Origin: Hyphomicrobiales bacterium
GTDB lineage: Bacteria > Pseudomonadota > Alphaproteobacteria > Rhizobiales > JAJFHB01
Direction of reading: 5' to 3'
DNA length: 58,107 nt
NCBI GenBank assembly: GCA_021775615.1
Contig: JAJFHL010000383.1
Span: 1 to 58,107, forward strand
Both the position numbers and the translations under genes were made by a program. Below are positions 8,146-30,484 of this stretch, piece by piece (the first letter of the stretch is position 1; each line of letters starts with the position of its first letter). The notes under the pieces were generated by a model. The model had not been told where the DNA came from and did no database searches. It was given only the letters and a program-made list of their open reading frames with translations.

Positions 8146-11100
8146 TCACCCCGGCGTTTCCGCTTCGAGGGACATCAGCGCGGCATTTCCGCCCGATGCG
8201 GTCGTGTCGGTGCTGGTGACCCGTTCAGTGGCGAATCGCGGCAGATAGTGCGGGCCGCCCGCCTTTGGTCCGGTGCCGGACAGCCCTTCGCCGCCAAAAG
8301 GTTGTGCGCCGACCACCGCGCCGATCTGATTGCGGTTCACATAGATGTTACCGACACGCATACGGGCAGCGATTTCCTCAGCCGTCGAATTGATACGAGT
8401 GTGGATGCCGAGCGTCAGGCCAAATCCCGTCGCGTTGAGCGCGTCACAGACAGCGCCAAGCTTGTCGCTCTGGAATTGAACCACGTGCAGGACCGGGCCG
8501 AACACTTCTCGCTCCAGCAGAGAAATGTCCTCAAGCTCGTAGGCCGCCGGGGAAACGAAAATACCAGCGGACGCCGATGCCGGAAGCGGTAAATCGATCA
8601 ATGTGGACGCCTTGGAGGCCATGCGGGCTTTGTGCGCGTCGAGGATCTTGCGCGCGTCTTCATCGATGACCGGCCCGATATCGGTTGTATAATCCAGCGG
8701 ATCGCCGATCCGCAGTTCTTCAATGGCGCCGGTGAGCATTGGAATGACCCGGTCCGCCACATCGCTTTGGACAAACAAAAGCCGCGCGGCCGAACAACGC
8801 TGGCCGGCGCTGTCAAAGGCCGAGTAGACCACGTCGCGCACCGCCTGCTCGGCAAGTGCCGTTGAATCGACGATCATCGCGTTCATGCCGCCGGTCTCGG
8901 CGATCAACGGAACGATCGGCCCCTCGCGGGCGGCCAGGGTCTGGTTGATGATCCGTGCCGTGTCGTTGGATCCGGTAAAGGCGACGCCGGAGATCCGCGG
9001 ATCGGACACCAGCGCTGCCCCCACCACGGCGCCATCGCCTGGCAGCAGATGAAGTACCGAACCTGGCACCCCTGCCGCGTGCAGCAGTCGGACGGCCTCG
9101 AAAGCAACCAGTGGCGTCTGCTCAGCCGGCTTGGCGATCACAGCATTGCCTGCGGCGAGGGCCGCCGACATCTGGCCGGTGAAAATGGCGAGCGGAAAGT
9201 TCCACGGGCTGATGCAGCAGAAGGTGCCGCGGCCGTGCAGTTCCAGATCGTTGCGCTCGCCGGTCGGCCCGCCCATGCGCAGCGGGCCGGAGAACTCGGC
9301 GCGGGCGCGCGCCGCGTAATAGCGCAGGAAGTCCACGGCTTCGCGGATGTCGCCGAGTGCGTTGTCGATGGTCTTGCCGGCTTCGCGGATGATGACCGCC
9401 ATCAGCCGCGACGTGCTCTGCTCGTAGAGATCCGCGGCCTTCTCCAGAATTTCTGCCCGCCCGGCGCCGCCAAGCGCATTCCACGATTCCTGCGCCGCGT
9501 CGGCGAGGCTCAATGCCCGGTCGATGGTTGCGGGATCGGTTTCGACGATTTGCCCGACAGTGACACTGCGGTCATGCGGAGAGGTGATGTCCCGGGACAC
9601 ACCCTTGGCCGGCTTGCCGTCGACCAGCGGCGCCGCCTTGAAGCCGCGCTCGAGGTGAGATCCGATCTCGTCCAGGTACTGGCCCCGCGTTGCATTGTCC
9701 CACAACGGATAGCCGGAAGAATTCCGCCGCGGCGCAAAGATCTCACGGGGGCCAACGATTTTCGGGTTGGGGACGACATCAAACGAGGTCAGCGCTTCCA
9801 TTGGATCGGCGATGATGTCGCGAATGGGAGCTTCATCATCCGCCAGCCGGTTGACGAACGACGTGTTGGCGCCGTTCTCCAGGAGGCGCCGGACCAAATA
9901 GGCCAGCAAGTCCTCGTGGCTGCCGACAGGGGCATAGATGCGACACGGCCGGTTGAGTTTGTTGCCGCCGACCACTTCGTCGTAGAGCGCCTGCCCCATG
10001 CCGTGCAGGCGCTGGAACTCGAAGCCTTCCTCGGCGCCGCTCATCACCATGATGGCGGCGAGAGTGTGGGCATTGTGAGTGGCAAACTGCGGGTAGAACA
10101 CATCCATGCGGCCAAGCATCAGTTTGGCGCAGGCCAGATAGGAGACGTCGGTCGACGCCTTGCGGGTGAACACCGGATAGGTGCTGAGCCCCTGTTCCTG
10201 GGCGCGTTTGACCTCGGTGTCCCAATAGGCTCCCTTGACCAGGCGCACCGGCAGGCGGCGGTCGGTCTCCTCGGCCAACCTGGCGAGCCACTCCAATGCC
10301 GGATAGGCGCGACGGCCGTAGGCCTGGACGGCGAGGCCGAGCCCCTGCCAGCCTTTCAACTCCTTGGCATGCGCAAGAGCGCCGAACACTTCGAGCGAGA
10401 TGTCGAGCCGGTCGGCTTCTTCGGCATCTATGGTGAGGCCCAGTTCCTGATCGCGCGCCATCATTGCAAGTTCGAGAATGCGCGGCAGGAGTTCGTCGTG
10501 AACACGGTCCGCCTGGCGCTCCTCGTAACGCGGATGCAGCGCCGACAGCTTGACCGAAATCGAGGGGCGTTCGTAGACCGTTTCTTCGGGCTTCATGGGA
10601 CCCGCCACACCGGCGACCTTCTTGAGCGCGTCCTTGTAAGCTGTGAAATACCGGTCGGCGTCGACCATGGTCATGGCGGCTTCGCCCAGCATATCGAAGG
10701 AAAAGCGATATCCGATGGCCGCCTGCGGAGCGCCCACGTCCATCGCTTCCTCGATGGTGCGGCCGAGCACGAACTGCTTGCCCATGATCCGCATCGCGTG
10801 TCGCATGGCCTGGCGGATGATCGGCTCGCCGGTACGCGAAATCACATGCTTGAAGTATCCGAGCACGTCCTTTTTTGCGTCAGTGCCCAGTTCCACGACA
10901 CGGCCGGTCAGCATCAGCCCCCAAGTCGACGCATTGACGAAAAGCGAGTCGGAGCGGCCGAGATGGTCCTCCCAGCCGCGCCCCGCGATCTTATCGACAA
11001 TCAGCTTGTCCTGGGTTTCCGCATCGGGGATGCGCAACAGGGCTTCAGCCAGGCACATCAGCACGACCCCCTCCTCGCTGGAGAGAGAGTACTCATGCAT

Positions 11101-20048: not shown

Positions 20049-21656
20049 TTACATGCGGAAAACGCCAAACTTGGTGTCGGGAATCGGCGCGTTAAGCGAT
20101 GCGGAGAGCGCCAACCCAAGAACGTTGCGGGTTTCGCCCGGCGCGATGACACCGTCGTCCCAAACCCTGGCGGTGGCGAAGTAGGGATGGCCTTCGCGCT
20201 CGAACTGTTCAAGCGTCGGACGCTTGAAGTCCTCTTCTTCCTCCATTGACCAGGAGCCGCCGTCAGCTTCGATATTGTCGCGCTTGACCTGGGCCAGCAC
20301 CGATGCCGCCTGGGGACCGCCCATCACGGAGATGCGTGCATTGGGCCACATGAACAGGAAACGCGGCGAATAGGCGCGCCCGCACATGCCGTAATTGCCG
20401 GCGCCGAAGGAACCGCCGATGATCACGGTGAACTTCGGCACCTGGGCACAGGCAACCGCGGTCACCATCTTTGCGCCGTTGCGGGCAATGCCGCCGGATT
20501 CGTATTTGCGGCCGACCATGAAGCCCGAGATGTTCTGCAGGAACACCAGCGGGATGTGGCGCTGGCAGCACAACTCGATGAAATGCGCGGCTTTCTGGGC
20601 CGATTCAGAATAGAGGATGCCGTTATTGGCGATGATGCCGACCGGCATGCCCATGATGTGCGCAAAGCCGGTGATCACCGTGGTCCCGTAAAGTTTCTTG
20701 AACTCGTCGAAATCAGAGCCGTCCACAAGGCGGGCGATCACTTCGCGGACATCGTACTGGACGGCGACGGATGGCGGCACGATCCCGTTCAGCTCGCCGG
20801 TTTCGTATTTCGGCGCAGCGGGATCGCGAAGGGGAATCTCGATCTGCTTGCGGGTGTTGAGGTCGCGCACGATCTGGCGCACCAGGGCAAGGGCGTGGGT
20901 GTCGTCCATGGCGTAGTGATCGGCAACGCCCGATTCACGGGCATGCACGTCGGCGCCTCCGAGGTCCTCCGCCGTGACCTCTTCGCCGGTGGCGGCCTTC
21001 ACCAGCGGCGGTCCGCCGAGAAAGATCGTGCCCTGTTTGCGCACGATGATGGTCTCGTCCGACATGGCCGGCACGTAGGCGCCACCCGCCGTGCACGACC
21101 CCATGACGCAGGCGATCTGGGGAATGCCGAGGGACGACAGGGTCGCCTGGTTGTAGAAGATGCGGCCGAAATGCTCGCGGTCGGGAAAGACTTCCGTGTG
21201 GTTCGGCAGATTGGCGCCGCCCGAATCGACCAGATAGATGCAGGGCAGACGGTTCTCGCGGGCGATCTCCTGGGCGCGCAGATGCTTCTTCACCGTCATC
21301 GGATAATAGGTGCCGCCCTTGATCGTCGCATCGTTGCAGACGATGACGCATTCGCGCCCCTCGATGCGGCCTATGCCGGTGATGACACCGGCGGAATGGA
21401 TGTCGCCGGAATACATGTCGAGCGCCGCCAGTTGCGAAAGCTCAAGGAACGGCGAGCCCGGGTCGACGAGCTGCATGACCCGGTCGCGCGGCAGAAGCTT
21501 GCCACGGCCCAGATGCCGCTCGCGCGAGCGTTCCGAGCCGCCGAGACCGACGAGCGCCCGTTTGTCGTTGAGATCGGCGACCACGGCCTCCATTGCGGCG
21601 GCGTTGGCGCGGAAGTCCTCGGACTTGGTATTGATTTGGGATTCTATCGTTGCCAT
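20049..21656 (-). CDS. mccB: Methylcrotonyl-CoA carboxylase, carboxyltransferase beta subunit
   Basis: This subunit moves the carboxyl group from MccA-biotin to 3-methylcrotonyl-CoA, giving 3-methylglutaconyl-CoA in leucine degradation. The 535-residue length and motifs fit Mcc[55 protein letters not shown], the glycine-rich [16 protein letters not shown], and [18 protein letters not shown]. The ATG at 21656 begins at MATIESQI; the frame extends 18 codons upstream. mccA is on the same strand but 4.7 kb away, an unusual split since the two are commonly adjacent. Other leucine genes (ivd, hmgL) are not in the window. Confidence 0.93.
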
Positions 21657-21716
21657 GGGCGCTATGTAGCGACCAATGCCCCGGGTCTGCAAGCCCAACG
21701 ATGCCCGCAACCGAAC

Positions 21717-22837: not shown

Positions 22838-25415
<2,578 letters not shown>

Positions 25416-26170: not shown

Positions 26171-26197
26171 CGGCGGCTCTCCGGGCCGCCGTTTTTT
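26171..26197 (+). terminator. Rho-independent terminator of aqpZ
   Basis: CGGCGGC (26171-26177) pairs with GCCGCCG (26185-26191), and TTTTTT follows at 26192-26197. It starts 35 bases after the aqpZ stop and closes that transcript, so the next gene needs its own promoter in the remaining 41 bases or depends on readthrough. Confidence 0.85.
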
Positions 26198-26238: not shown

Positions 26239-28002
26239 ATGGCGCTCAAACGCAAAGATATTCTTCCGGAGCCGGAATTGCCTGCCGGCAGCGAGCTACT
26301 GGATCGCGGCAGCGTCCTTGCGCGCGACTGGCGGCTCGGCGAAAGCGCGTTCCTGTCCCATGTCGGACACGCGTGCGAGGCCGACTTCAAGCGCGCCTGC
26401 GCCGCTTCAGGCCGCATCACGCAGCACGCCCAGATCGGCTTCCGCGACCCAGACAAAACCCGGCGAGCCTTCGCCGAGGTTCATGAAACCTGCGCCCGCC
26501 AGGGCGTCACCGTCGACCGCAGTGGGATCTGCCTTGACTGGTCCATGGGATATGCCCGCGACGACCGCACCGAAGAGATGCGCGGCACCGGGCTCCTGCT
26601 CGAAGATATCGAGGACTTCGTACATCTGACCCAGGCGGCGCCCGTCGCACCGCATTTCGGCGATTTCGTGCTCGGATTTCCCGCCGCCATCGAGAACACC
26701 CAGGCCGCTCTCGCCGCCGGCTCCACGGCGATCGGCAATCTCGGCCAATACTTCACCTTCCGGCTGCCGGGATGGGATGACGATGTGGCGGTGACAGAGG
26801 CAACAGTGACGGCGCTTGGCCTGATTGCGGCTCAGGACGTGGAAATCCTGGTGCATTCCAACCTGGATGACGGCTTTGCCGCCCTGTTTACCGACCTGGC
26901 ATCGAGCATCGGCGCGGTCCTGCTCGAAAAATACATCGTGGAGGATCTGATTGGAGCGTCGATGAGCCATTGCTACGGCCACCATTTCTCAGACCCGTTC
27001 CGGCGCCTGGCCTTTCAGACCGCGATGGCGCAGGTCACTGAAACTCCCGGCACGATGGTCTACGGCAACACCGTGAGCTATACCGGCGGCGATGCGCAAA
27101 ACTATGCAAGCCTTGCAGCCTATCTCCTGTGCGACATCACCGGCCAGAGGCATACGGCGACCGGCCATGCGGTCAATGCGGTTCCGATCCGCGAGAACAG
27201 CCGTATCCCCGACATCGATGAGATCGTTGACGCGCAGCTCTTTGCCGGCCGCCTGGTGGAGAGCGCACAAGGTTACGACGGCCTGTTTGACTTCGAACGG
27301 GCCGAGCGGCATGGCGCGGAGATTGCCGAGGGCGGCCGGAAGTTCTTTCAAAACGTCATGTCGGGCCTGACAGAAGCGGGCATCGACACGACGGACGCGG
27401 CCGAAATGCTGCTCGCCCTTAAACGGCTCGGCAGCAAACAGCTGGAACAGGCCTTTGGCGCGGGCCTCACGGACGCGGACGCCTTGCGTGGCAGGGCGCC
27501 AGTTGCGCCCTCACCGATCATGGAAGAAGTCGAACACATGGCAACCGAGCGGATCGGCCATATATCGGACGACGATATAGCGGCTGTCCGCGATGCCGGG
27601 TTCAAGGTGCTGGTCGCAACGACGGATGTTCACGAACACGGCAAGCTGGTGATCGAACGGGTGTTTGCGAATGTCGGCATCGGATCGATTGACGGCGGGA
27701 TCTCCGCCGACCCGGACGATCTTGTGGCGACGGCCAGGACAACCGGCGCGGACGCCATTGCGATCTCGACCTATAACGGGATCGCCCTTGAGTACATCAC
27801 ATCGGTGAAGGCGGAATTGAAGGCAAACGGCCTCGACATCCCGGTGCTCGTCGGTGGACGCCTCAATCAGATCCCCAAGGGGTCCAACACCAGCCTTCCC
27901 GTCGATGTCACCTCCGAGCTGCAGGCCGCCGGCGCCATCGTGTGCGGTCAGGTGGAAGATGCGATCCCCGCACTTCTGCAGACCCCCGGCAGGCAATCAT
28001 AG
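26239..28002 (+). CDS. Cobalamin-binding protein, distant glutamate-mutase-like fusion, function unassigned
   Basis: The 587-residue protein has two parts. Residues ~455-580 form a B12-binding domain of the base-off/His-on type: the DxHxxG motif is D463-V-H465-E-H-G468, then S510 in ISTYNG and G539-G540 in VLVGGRL, matching the D-x-H-x2-G...S...GG pattern of mutase small subunits. The N-terminal ~430 residues include GFPAAIENTQAALAAG, TPGTMVYGNTVSY and ATGHAVNAVPIRENSRIPD, faintly like the barrel of glutamate (methylaspartate) mutase E chains; I judge this distant. No CoA-mutase barrel or PLP lysine motif is evident. ATG at 26239 lacks a clear ribosome-binding site. A ProC-like gene follows 19 bp later. 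Reaction unknown. Confidence 0.7.
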   Translation: MALKRKDILPEPELPAGSELLDRGSVLARDWRLGESAFLSHVGHACEADFKRACAASGRITQHAQIGFRDPDKTRRAFAEVHETCARQGVTVDRSGICLDWSMGYARDDRTEEMRGTGLLLEDIEDFVHLTQAAPVAPHFGDFVLGFPAAIENTQAALAAGSTAIGNLGQYFTFRLPGWDDDVAVTEATVTALGLIAAQDVEILVHSNLDDGFAALFTDLASSIGAVLLEKYIVEDLIGASMSHCYGHHFSDPFRRLAFQTAMAQVTETPGTMVYGNTVSYTGGDAQNYASLAAYLLCDITGQRHTATGHAVNAVPIRENSRIPDIDEIVDAQLFAGRLVESAQGYDGLFDFERAERHGAEIAEGGRKFFQNVMSGLTEAGIDTTDAAEMLLALKRLGSKQLEQAFGAGLTDADALRGRAPVAPSPIMEEVEHMATERIGHISDDDIAAVRDAGFKVLVATTDVHEHGKLVIERVFANVGIGSIDGGISADPDDLVATARTTGADAIAISTYNGIALEYITSVKAELKANGLDIPVLVGGRLNQIPKGSNTSLPVDVTSELQAAGAIVCGQVEDAIPALLQTPGRQS

Positions 28003-28021
28003 CAACAAGGACCTCGATCAC

Positions 28022-28789
28022 ATGAAGCCCATTCAAGTCGGCATTCTGGGTGTCGGCCACCTGACCTATCACATGGTGCCCGGCCTGGTGGCGGGGGACA
28101 ACGCCCTGGAAATCCGGCTTTCGCCGCGCAACGCGGAACTCGCCGGCGACCTGAAGGCGCGGTTTGGCGTGGAGATTGCCGCTGACAACAAGGATCTTGT
28201 GGAAAAAAGCGACGTGGTGCTGATCGGCGTGCGTCAGTTTCATGCCCTGGATGTGGTCAAAGACCTGCCCTGGCGTGCAGACCAGACGGTCGTTTCGTGT
28301 TGCGCCGGCCTCGCTCTCGACCAGCTTGCCCCGCTCACCGGCGAAGCGTCGCTGGTCCGGGCGATGCCCACGGTGGGCGCCGAGTTTGGTGAAAGCCCGA
28401 CATGCATCTTTCCCGACAATGCAGCGGCAACCGCTGTGTTGTCGAACTGCGGGACCGTCATTCCGCTGGGCTCCGAGCACCTCTTCAACGCGGCAACGGT
28501 CACGGTTTGCTACTCGAGCATGCTGTTCGGCCTGCTGGCGCGCATGGTCGAATGGAACGAAGCGGCGGGCCTCGAACCGCAGACTGCAAGGCAACTGGTG
28601 AGCGAGCTGACGAAATCGACCGCCGTCATGGCCGCTGAGCGCAGTCACGTGCCCCTCGATGCCATTGTCGAGGAACTCGCGACACCGGGAAGCTTCACGC
28701 TGAAGGGGCTTGAGACCCTGCAGGCAGGCAATGCATTCCAGTCATGGACCGATATGAGCAACGCCCTGATCGAGGAGCTTGCCGAATAA
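28022..28789 (+). CDS. ProC-like NAD(P)-binding reductase (pyrroline-5-carboxylate reductase family)
   Basis: The 255-residue protein has an N-terminal Rossmann fold, IQVGILGVGHLTYHMVPGLV, and further ProC-like segments: VEKSDVVLIGVRQFHALDVV, TVVSCCAGLALDQLA, LVRAMPTVGAEFGES and a C-terminal helical domain with ELTKSTAVMAAE and ATPGSFTLKGLETLQAG. True ProC reduces pyrroline-5-carboxylate to proline; paralogs act on related imines or 2-oxoacids. ATG at 28022 follows AAGGA at about 12 bases. The gene is 19 bp downstream of the cobalamin-binding gene and almost certainly co-transcribed. Given that partner, I think it is a specialised paralog and not the housekeeping ProC; this is inference. Confidence 0.75.
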   Translation: MKPIQVGILGVGHLTYHMVPGLVAGDNALEIRLSPRNAELAGDLKARFGVEIAADNKDLVEKSDVVLIGVRQFHALDVVKDLPWRADQTVVSCCAGLALDQLAPLTGEASLVRAMPTVGAEFGESPTCIFPDNAAATAVLSNCGTVIPLGSEHLFNAATVTVCYSSMLFGLLARMVEWNEAAGLEPQTARQLVSELTKSTAVMAAERSHVPLDAIVEELATPGSFTLKGLETLQAGNAFQSWTDMSNALIEELAE

Positions 28790-29008: not shown

Positions 29009-30484
29009 ATGAGCTTCGATCAACTTGGCCTAAGTCCCAAGGTGCTGGCCGCCGTGCAGGCGGCAGGATTTGACACCCCTACCCCGATCCAGGAACAAGC
29101 AATCCCCGTCGTCCTCCAGGGCGGTGATGTGATGGGGCTAGCACAAACCGGCACCGGCAAAACCGCTTCGTTCACCTTGCCGATCCTGAATCGGCTGGAA
29201 AAAGGACGGGCGCGCACACGGATGCCGCGAACGCTGATTCTCGAGCCGACGCGGGAACTTGCGGCTCAGGTGCACGAGAGCTTCGAGCTGGTGGGTGCCA
29301 ACCACAAACTCACGATCGCACTTCTCATTGGCGGCGTTTCCTTCGCCGATCAGGACCGCAAGCTGGCAAAGGGCGCGGACGTACTGATCGCCACACCGGG
29401 ACGCCTGCTCGATCATTTCGAGCGCGGCAAGCTGATGATGAACGGCGTCGAGGTGCTGGTCGTCGACGAGGCCGACCGAATGCTCGACATGGGGTTCATT
29501 CCCGACATTGAGCGTATTTGCAAGCTCCTGCCGAAAAGCCGTCAGACCCTCTTCTTTTCGGCCACAATGCCACCGGAAATTCAGCGAATCACAAAAGCCT
29601 TCCTGAACAACCCGACCCAGATCGAGGTTGCGGCACGAAGCCAGGCGGCGTCCACGATCACTCAGGGGTGGGTGGCCGTTCCCTCCGATCCCAAGGGGAA
29701 GCGCGACGCCCTGCGGCGCATTCTGACGACACAGCCGGTCAAAAACGCCATCGTGTTCTGCAACCGCAAACGTGATGTCGCCCTTCTTGAGAAGTCATTT
29801 GAACGTCACAAGCTTTCCGGCCGCGCCCTGCATGGCGACATGAACCAGCATGCGCGTCTCGAAACGCTTCAGATGTTTCGCGACGGAGAAATCACTTATC
29901 TGATTGCAAGTGACGTGGCGGCGCGCGGACTGGACATTCCCGAAGTGAGCCACGTCTTCAATTTCGATATCCCGGACGCACCAGAAGATTACATCCACCG
30001 CATCGGCCGCACCGGACGCGCGGGTAAGGAAGGACACGCCATCGGCCTGGTCGCACGCTCCGACAGGTCGAAGATTTCAGCAATCGAACAACTCATTGGC
30101 AGCTCTCTTCCCTGGCTCGAAGGCGAGCCGGCGGAGACCTCCGACGACGACACCCCGGAACGGCGTGGCCGAGGCCGCGGACGGGGCGCCAAGCCGGCAA
30201 GGCGGGGCCGCGAACCCAAACGTGACGATAGCAAACGCGGTGAAGACAAGCGCGGTGAAGGCAAGCCCGACGACAGAAAGCGCGACGACAGAAAGCCCGA
30301 CGACGGCGACCGTGAAGTCTCCGAGAAAACCGGAACGCCGGACGAAAAAGCGAAACCAAGACGGACTGCAACCACCGATAAGCAACCTGACTCGAGACGC
30401 AAGTCGGATCGTGGCAAAGAAGTATTGGGGCTTGGCGACCATGTACCGGCGTTTCTGATGAAGCCGCTGCGCAAAGACGGCTGA
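29009..30484 (+). CDS. DEAD-box RNA helicase (RhlE-like)
   Basis: The 491-residue ATP-dependent RNA helicase has all core motifs in order: Q-motif region (PTPIQEQAIP), AQTGTGKTASF (motif I), PTRELAAQV, TPGRLLDHF, VLVVDEADRMLDMGF (DEAD), FFSATMP, VAARGLDIPEV and YIHRIGRTGRAGKEG (motif VI). After residue ~375 comes a disordered basic tail with Arg/Gly (GRGRGRGAKPARRG) and near-repeats of KR-D/G-D/E units (about 30217-30310), as in RhlE-type helicases, which use such tails for RNA binding. Likely role: ribosome or mRNA unfolding, possibly with RNase E. The start is ATG; the GGDEF gene follows after 122 bp. Confidence 0.92.
   Translation: MSFDQLGLSPKVLAAVQAAGFDTPTPIQEQAIPVVLQGGDVMGLAQTGTGKTASFTLPILNRLEKGRARTRMPRTLILEPTRELAAQVHESFELVGANHKLTIALLIGGVSFADQDRKLAKGADVLIATPGRLLDHFERGKLMMNGVEVLVVDEADRMLDMGFIPDIERICKLLPKSRQTLFFSATMPPEIQRITKAFLNNPTQIEVAARSQAASTITQGWVAVPSDPKGKRDALRRILTTQPVKNAIVFCNRKRDVALLEKSFERHKLSGRALHGDMNQHARLETLQMFRDGEITYLIASDVAARGLDIPEVSHVFNFDIPDAPEDYIHRIGRTGRAGKEGHAIGLVARSDRSKISAIEQLIGSSLPWLEGEPAETSDDDTPERRGRGRGRGAKPARRGREPKRDDSKRGEDKRGEGKPDDRKRDDRKPDDGDREVSEKTGTPDEKAKPRRTATTDKQPDSRRKSDRGKEVLGLGDHVPAFLMKPLRKDG

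Follow-up and report, generated by a model that had tools for sequence, protein, structure and literature searches.

What reaction might be performed by a cobalamin-dependent protein that is encoded directly ahead of a ProC-type reductase? This question is raised by a gene pair in a stretch of 58,107 nucleotides (hereafter the window) from contig JAJFHL010000383.1 of a Hyphomicrobiales bacterium (GCA_021775615.1). The first gene encodes a 587-residue protein, here called the mutase, and the second a reductase, here called ProC (Table 1). We propose, with a probability of roughly 70%, that the former is a fused adenosylcobalamin (AdoCbl)-dependent carbon-skeleton mutase whose substrate is an amino, imino or related acid and which has an imine reductase as its linked partner. 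The rearrangement that it performs is probably one without a previous description. The B12 motif, the predicted fold, the gene pairing and the conservation carry this proposal. That the protein is an AdoCbl mutase is very likely, and the chances that its substrate is an imino or amino acid are about even. To our knowledge, few AdoCbl carbon-skeleton mutase reactions have been found, and each of them defines a pathway. The accessible parts of the literature that we searched (including PMC2667541, PMC10378866, PMC4682846 and PMC10481361) do not describe the family, a negative that holds for that search alone.

Relatives were collected by a species-level scan with one genome per species, which gave at least 314. 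The best 80 of them were kept as loci; neighbour counts from this set lean to near relatives, and several of its contigs are short. A less biased, class-wide draw comprised 289 genomes and shares at least one genome with the 80-locus set (L130 is L073). Conservation was counted over 83 aligned rows, namely the window, 79 of the 80 loci (L044, with a broken frame, was dropped from the tree and the count) and three more sequences.

The first-pass annotation had recognised a complete DxHxxG...S...GG motif in a C-terminal B12 domain, and this was borne out. The Pfam B12-binding family matches residues 458-542 of the mutase (41 bits against a cut-off of 32) and was found in all 46 homologs scanned. 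D463, H465, G539 and G540 are invariant over the 83 rows, so that the motif histidine, whose loss would have spoken against the proposal, was retained throughout; G468 is kept in 79 rows and S510 in 82. Outside the B12 domain, R94, D100, E319 and R322 are likewise invariant. A distant copy outside the 83 rows (L135) keeps D463, H465, the GG pair, E319, R322 and R94, and has Ala468, Thr510 and Glu100.

The N-terminal domain had been described as unlike any recognised CoA-mutase, aminomutase or methyltransferase, and in the same Pfam scan none of the 46 homologs matched a family over these ~440 residues; beyond B12-binding, just two single chance-level matches appeared. The MM_CoA_mutase family was among those with no match in the 46 homologs. 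The closest solved sequence, 2yxb (E 8e-6), covers the B12 domain only, and no close match to a characterised B12 enzyme was found in the PDB or the family libraries; 2-methyleneglutarate mutase (Mgm) could be compared by description only. Where full-length copies were annotated in the records examined, they were called "cobalamin-dependent protein" or "hypothetical protein".

The fold was predicted for the whole mutase (mean predicted local distance difference test, pLDDT, 89; predicted template modelling score, pTM, 0.91) and for the N-terminal domain separately (45 sequences, pLDDT 94.4). With VIA-align, the latter model matched the epsilon subunit of glutamate mutase (GlmE) best (Z 28.9, 386 residues, 3.7 A), followed by lysine 5,6-aminomutase (26.6), ornithine aminomutase (22.2) and methylmalonyl-CoA (coenzyme A) mutase (about 20); the highest non-mutase barrel reached 17.6. 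Foldseek on the N-terminal domain alone also placed GlmE at the top (E 8e-10). The C-terminal domain (residues 452-586) matched GlmS (1i9c_A, Z 15.3), tied with the B12 domain of a CoA mutase (8dpb_D, Z 15.7). Because the N-terminal domain matches GlmE best and the C-terminal domain matches GlmS, the predicted chain resembles GlmE joined to GlmS, the B12 domain standing at the C-terminal end.

The link to ProC, which the first-pass annotation had taken from a single gene lying 19 bp 3' of the mutase, proved to be recurrent. The protein in the window matches the Pfam families F420_oxidored and P5CR_dimer above their cut-offs. Of the 80 loci, 35 have a same-strand ProC gene next to the mutase (31 downstream, 4 upstream) and 12 others have one within 10 kb, 47 in total; none was seen in the remaining 33. 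Restricting the count to the 73 loci with at least 900 nt on both flanks gives 33 adjacent, 11 nearby and 29 with none seen. In the class-wide draw, 13 copies belong to clade A, and 8 of them have ProC directly downstream; leaving out the window gives 7 of 12. Since 28 genome handles gave 56 ProC-family matches, we estimate chance adjacency at about 1 in 10,000. Several groupings, judged by eye, are common to the mutase and ProC trees (L047 and L051; L042, L053 and L083; L086, L104 and L111; L058, L060 and L075; the window and L036), as expected for co-inheritance. The partner is conserved but not obligate: the proposed pairing stands as a conserved link, and in many homologs the reductase is distant or missing. 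We regard a functional link as likely.

The best NCBIfam match of the window ProC is NF005063 (PRK06476-type pyrroline-5-carboxylate reductases), which was matched by all 29 ProC proteins scanned (the window protein plus 28 of the 48 encoded next to or near a mutase). The window ProC stays under both NCBIfam equivalog cut-offs for pyrroline-5-carboxylate reductase (136 against 254 bits and 94 against 197 bits). Its own genome also encodes a canonical ProC (L118, 258 bits against a cut-off of 197) and a second PRK06476-type protein (L117, 247 bits). Because a canonical ProC lies above the cut-off elsewhere in the genome, the window ProC is not the housekeeping enzyme. Partner-type ProC proteins are encoded elsewhere in 9 of 19 checked genomes without an adjacent ProC; four of these proteins belong to the larger partner clade and the other five to the second. 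In this search G573 and G706 probably stand for one genome, as their matches were identical. The idea that the partner ProC proteins form a single clade was rejected, as they fall into two deep subclades, each with free members. The tree is midpoint-rooted and does not permit a claim of two recruitments.

A connection with AdoCbl mutase chemistry was also found by a route other than the fold. In a sister clade (clade B: L008, L028 and L135), whose members are about 32-33% identical to the window protein, with L135 41-43% identical to the other two, a MutL gene (PF13941, 397 and 452 bits) directly adjoins two of three mutases. The mutase genes beside MutL (L027 568-3749 and L148 9001-12156) precede it in one case and follow it in the other. 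MutL is a chaperone that reactivates glutamate mutase, according to the accessible part of PMC4682846, and its position therefore ties the family to AdoCbl mutase chemistry. Together with the predicted fold and the intact B12 motif, it supports the earlier suggestion of a fused, glutamate-mutase-like radical enzyme. Near two sister-clade mutases we also observed an ornithine-cyclodeaminase-family gene (L028 2372-3406, minus strand) and another whose product has NAD_binding_2 and reductive-aminase-like domains (L027 5991-6848, plus strand); these too are imine-type enzymes, of other folds.

A second type of imine enzyme is recurrent in the neighbourhood survey, which had been suggested together with the original prediction and which confirmed ProC as a repeated neighbour. 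Genes resembling aspartate dehydrogenase (AspDH) were found in 16 of the 80 loci; the match in L043 is weak (76 bits), and 8 of the 16 loci also have ProC. All 16 AspDH-linked mutases have His65 and Phe275, and Tyr275 is present in 36 of 36 ProC-adjacent rows. Other contexts were too varied to reveal a substrate; identification by a census of neighbours was rejected for this divergence, and no full pathway could be written. Recurrent but lineage-bound neighbours in the 80 loci encode cupins (17), alpha/beta hydrolases (12), proline-racemase-family proteins (10), DapA-like (7), D-amino-acid-dehydrogenase-like (7) and PhyH (7) proteins and ArgE-type enzymes (5). Genes resembling trans-3-hydroxyproline dehydratase and DapA are found in Brucellaceae and Xanthobacteraceae, an ArgE-type deacetylase in Gammaproteobacteria, and a PhyH dioxygenase in several lineages. 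Single loci carry, above cut-off, a crotonyl-CoA carboxylase/reductase within 80 bp 3' of the mutase (L069 9986-13039), a link to the ethylmalonyl-CoA pathway; a malate-CoA ligase beta subunit encoded upstream on the same strand (L101); BhcA about 4 kb away (L108); and an adjoining 1-aminocyclopropane-1-carboxylate deaminase (L080). The neighbours point to the catabolism of amino or imino acids without naming a single substrate, and perhaps to C5 methyl-branched acids. Taken with the conserved ProC partner, the neighbours of the AspDH, hydroxyproline, PhyH and ArgE types restrict the possible chemistry sufficiently for an assay to be aimed at it.

For a view of the active site, GlmE was aligned with the mutase by hhalign in four settings; the alignment is colinear but of low confidence, and the residue mapping drawn from it is tentative throughout. 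Stable in all four settings were the correspondences of GlmE E330 with E319, I334 with I323, P335 with P324, and R66 with residue 65. In GlmE, we take R66, R100 and R149 to be the arginine claw and E171 a further contact of glutamate. Residue 65, facing R66, is Q in 26, H in 18 and N in 2 of 46 rows, and R149 faces H139 in three settings; in one setting the partners of R149 and E171 fall in a gap. The partner of R100 shifted between settings, and position 101 is Arg in 2 of 46 rows. In this mapping, none of the six glutamate contacts of GlmE is retained in the window protein, the residues that face the claw and E171 being neither Arg nor Glu. Because the positions of R66 and R149 would be occupied by Q/H/N and H, L-glutamate is not a likely substrate.

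The scheme that we infer comprises the radical chemistry, the class of substrate and the order of the two steps. His465 would serve as the lower cobalt ligand in a base-off/His-on arrangement, and homolysis of the Co-C bond would generate a 5'-deoxyadenosyl radical within the barrel, where Glu319 would help to hold it. Hydrogen abstraction by this radical from a small acid would then set off the rearrangement of the acid's skeleton. A probable substrate would be an acid of about five carbons with an amino, imino, oxo or hydroxy group, L-glutamate itself being improbable. The ProC-type partner would interconvert imine and amine either ahead of the rearrangement, preparing the substrate, or after it, reducing the product, with an AspDH-type enzyme acting in addition to it, or in its place, in one branch. 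A more specific version, which we put forward only tentatively, would have the mutase rearrange an imino acid, either open-chain or a pyrroline-type ring, with the C=N group migrating as the acrylate does in the Mgm reaction; this would be a B12 radical reaction not yet known, and ProC- or AspDH-type reductases would lock the imine as an amine. If so, the pair would form a module for catabolism in aerobic Alpha- and Gammaproteobacteria, and its subfamilies would serve different substrates.

Several observations weigh against the proposed fused mutase with its linked reductase. At the sequence level, PF06368 (the GlmE family) was unmatched at E 0.01 in the 46 homologs, with none in the window's own genome, and the profile-profile comparison of the N-terminal domain with GlmE was not significant (hhalign probability about 1% or less); of the two comparisons suggested at the outset, the structural one put GlmE first and the profile one gave no significant similarity to it. 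Foldseek on the whole mutase ranks methylmalonyl-CoA mutase first, over GlmE, probably because both domains match in order. MutL lies above cut-off in just 2 of 25 genomes, both of clade B, and the window's genome has none above it. Of the 19 genomes checked that have no nearby ProC, 10 also lack a partner-type ProC (197 bits or more). The residue differences of the AspDH-linked mutases lie mostly within one clade and may be explained by ancestry. Finally, beyond ProC and AspDH the neighbours are highly varied, 253 same-strand neighbours falling into 159 clusters.

Two alternatives retain the carbon-skeleton mutase but change its substrate. The protein could be an aerobic relative of the Mgm of Eubacterium barkeri that rearranges an acrylate-type dicarboxylate, with ProC acting elsewhere in the pathway. 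Mgm is a single chain of similar size with a C-terminal B12 domain, and the loss of the amino-acid contacts of GlmE, as read from the low-confidence alignment, would suit such an enzyme, as would the scarcity of methylaspartate ammonia-lyase, which stayed under cut-off in 25 of 26 genomes, the window's included (the remaining one was at the cut-off, 27 bits). We nevertheless consider this unlikely: imine/amine enzymes of the ProC and AspDH types are recurrent beside the mutase (no search aimed at other Mgm-pathway enzymes was made), and Mgm was undetected in a 2009 survey of sequenced genomes, as far as its accessible text goes (PMC2667541). A true glutamate mutase variant, converting L-glutamate to 3-methylaspartate for AspDH-like or other enzymes, would account for GlmE being the closest fold of the N-terminal domain, for MutL beside two sister-clade members and, in single members, for the neighbouring malate-CoA ligase and crotonyl-CoA carboxylase/reductase. 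It is quite improbable in view of the substituted glutamate contacts in the tentative mapping, the same lack of methylaspartate ammonia-lyase and the absence of PF06368 matches.

Other kinds of B12 protein fit far less well. The B12 domain by itself also resembles that of methionine synthase, so a corrinoid methyltransferase or another non-mutase protein might be imagined, but the barrel ranks among AdoCbl mutases, and the helical cap domain (PF02607) expected ahead of the B12 domain was unmatched in the 46 homologs, the model having two helices there (426-439 and 444-453); such a function is very hard to credit. An aminomutase using pyridoxal phosphate (PLP) and B12 would agree with lysine 5,6-aminomutase as the second-best fold. 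In KamE, we take the PLP lysine to lie 11 residues past the motif histidine; at this assumed offset none of 46 rows has Lys and 44 have Leu or Phe, and the Pfam matches include no PLP-type domain, which makes an aminomutase a very remote prospect.

Set beside known systems, the proposed fused mutase shares with GlmE/GlmS of Clostridium cochlearium (1cb7, 6h9e) the best N-terminal fold, a B12 domain for which GlmS is among the best matches, the tentatively aligned glutamate (E330 of GlmE) with the I-P that follows, and, in its sister clade, the MutL neighbour. It differs in being one chain with a C-terminal B12 domain and a ProC partner, in the non-significant sequence similarity and unretained glutamate contacts, and in a genome without MutL or methylaspartate ammonia-lyase above cut-off. 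The view that the B12 subunit is normally separate proved too strong, as GlmS-GlmE fusions were found in Pseudomonadota (L119 and L120) and Mgm is one chain, a feature that it shares, by its description, with the mutase. L119 and L120 also join a barrel and a B12 domain, but they carry the latter at the N-terminus and are clear PF06368 members, and because of this their fusion is probably independent. A PLP-decarboxylase-like gene, recognised by eye, directly follows that of L119. Lysine 5,6- and ornithine 4,5-aminomutases, the second and third fold matches, are followed in their pathways by amine dehydrogenases; unlike them, the mutase has no Lys at the presumed PLP place. An uncharacterised B12 protein family adjoining a CH-NH oxidoreductase, here opine dehydrogenase, has also been predicted in Firmicutes, Chloroflexi and Thermotogae, with an N-terminal B12 region (accessible text of PMC2667541; compared by description only).

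The family is rare but widespread. It was present in 12 of the 289 genomes of the class-wide draw, the window's own counted, and the best 80 of the 314 relatives are mostly from Alphaproteobacteria, with some from Gammaproteobacteria and one from Ramlibacter. In a set made up of the window's genome and 40 relatives (41 in all), 7 genomes, own counted, have an almost complete copy with an identity of at least 49%; copies at about 33% identity occur in G002 and G007, both of which also have a closer copy, a fragment in G002. L059 (1376-8400) contains four tandem mutase copies, the last truncated by the contig end, and L070 (638-9631) five, one of them in two pieces, followed by two ProC copies; these expansions may mark different substrates. 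At L082, an arylsulfatase-like gene (8502-9977, 436 bits against a cut-off of 481) lies immediately 5' of the mutase, with amino-acid ABC transporter genes nearby (by eye), and a sulfated amino-acid-like substrate is possible there. Mutase-ProC pairs labelled Mesoflavibacter (Bacteroidota, L104) and Hodarchaeota (L107) are placed among proteobacterial rows of the tree, and their labels or bins may be wrong. A Rhizobium lentis plasmid carries the C-terminal part of the mutase alone (L035 9728-10693, 39% of the query), annotated as DUF1349 with adjoining IS66 genes, which looks like a decayed copy.

Table 1. Features of the mutase-ProC gene pair in the window.
Feature	Position	Strand	Basis
Terminator-like hairpin between aqpZ and the pair (9 pairs and six T)	26171..26191	+	
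Fused cobalamin-dependent mutase-like gene (P0001), 587 aa	26239..28002	+	ORF list, homolog alignments
N-terminal glutamate-mutase-epsilon-like barrel domain (predicted), residues 1-437	26239..27549	+	Models, fold searches
E319 and R322 (E-x-x-R-I-P, past the last barrel strand)	27193..27204	+	Both in 83/83 rows
C-terminal GlmS-like B12-binding domain, residues 452-586	27592..27996	+	Pfam PF02310, fold match
D463-x-H465-x-x-G468 cobalt-ligand motif	27625..27642	+	
S510 of B12 motif	27766..27768	+	82/83 rows
G539-G540 of B12 motif	27853..27858	+	83/83 rows
19-bp intergenic gap with AAGGA, ribosome-site-like, ahead of ProC-like start	28003..28021	+	Sequence reading
ProC-family (PRK06476-type) reductase gene (P0002), 255 aa	28022..28789	+	

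The ATG start of the mutase gene agrees with the nearest matches that start at residue 1, L002 and L004; because these align from residue 1 of the ATG form, a 642-residue GTG form is not needed. The pair had been regarded as a unit of its own, which is backed only upstream, where the hairpin lies between it and aqpZ; downstream, no plus-strand terminator was called between the pair and a DEAD-box gene at 29009. The helicase of that gene's cluster is present in 13 of 86 clustered loci, the window included. The genome also contains a PduO-type adenosyltransferase match, partial and at a contig end. Ordinary genes near the pair, both on the minus strand, are a gene of the peroxidase family resembling the catalase-peroxidase KatG (22838-25084) and an acyl-CoA carboxylase carboxyltransferase gene (20049-21710).

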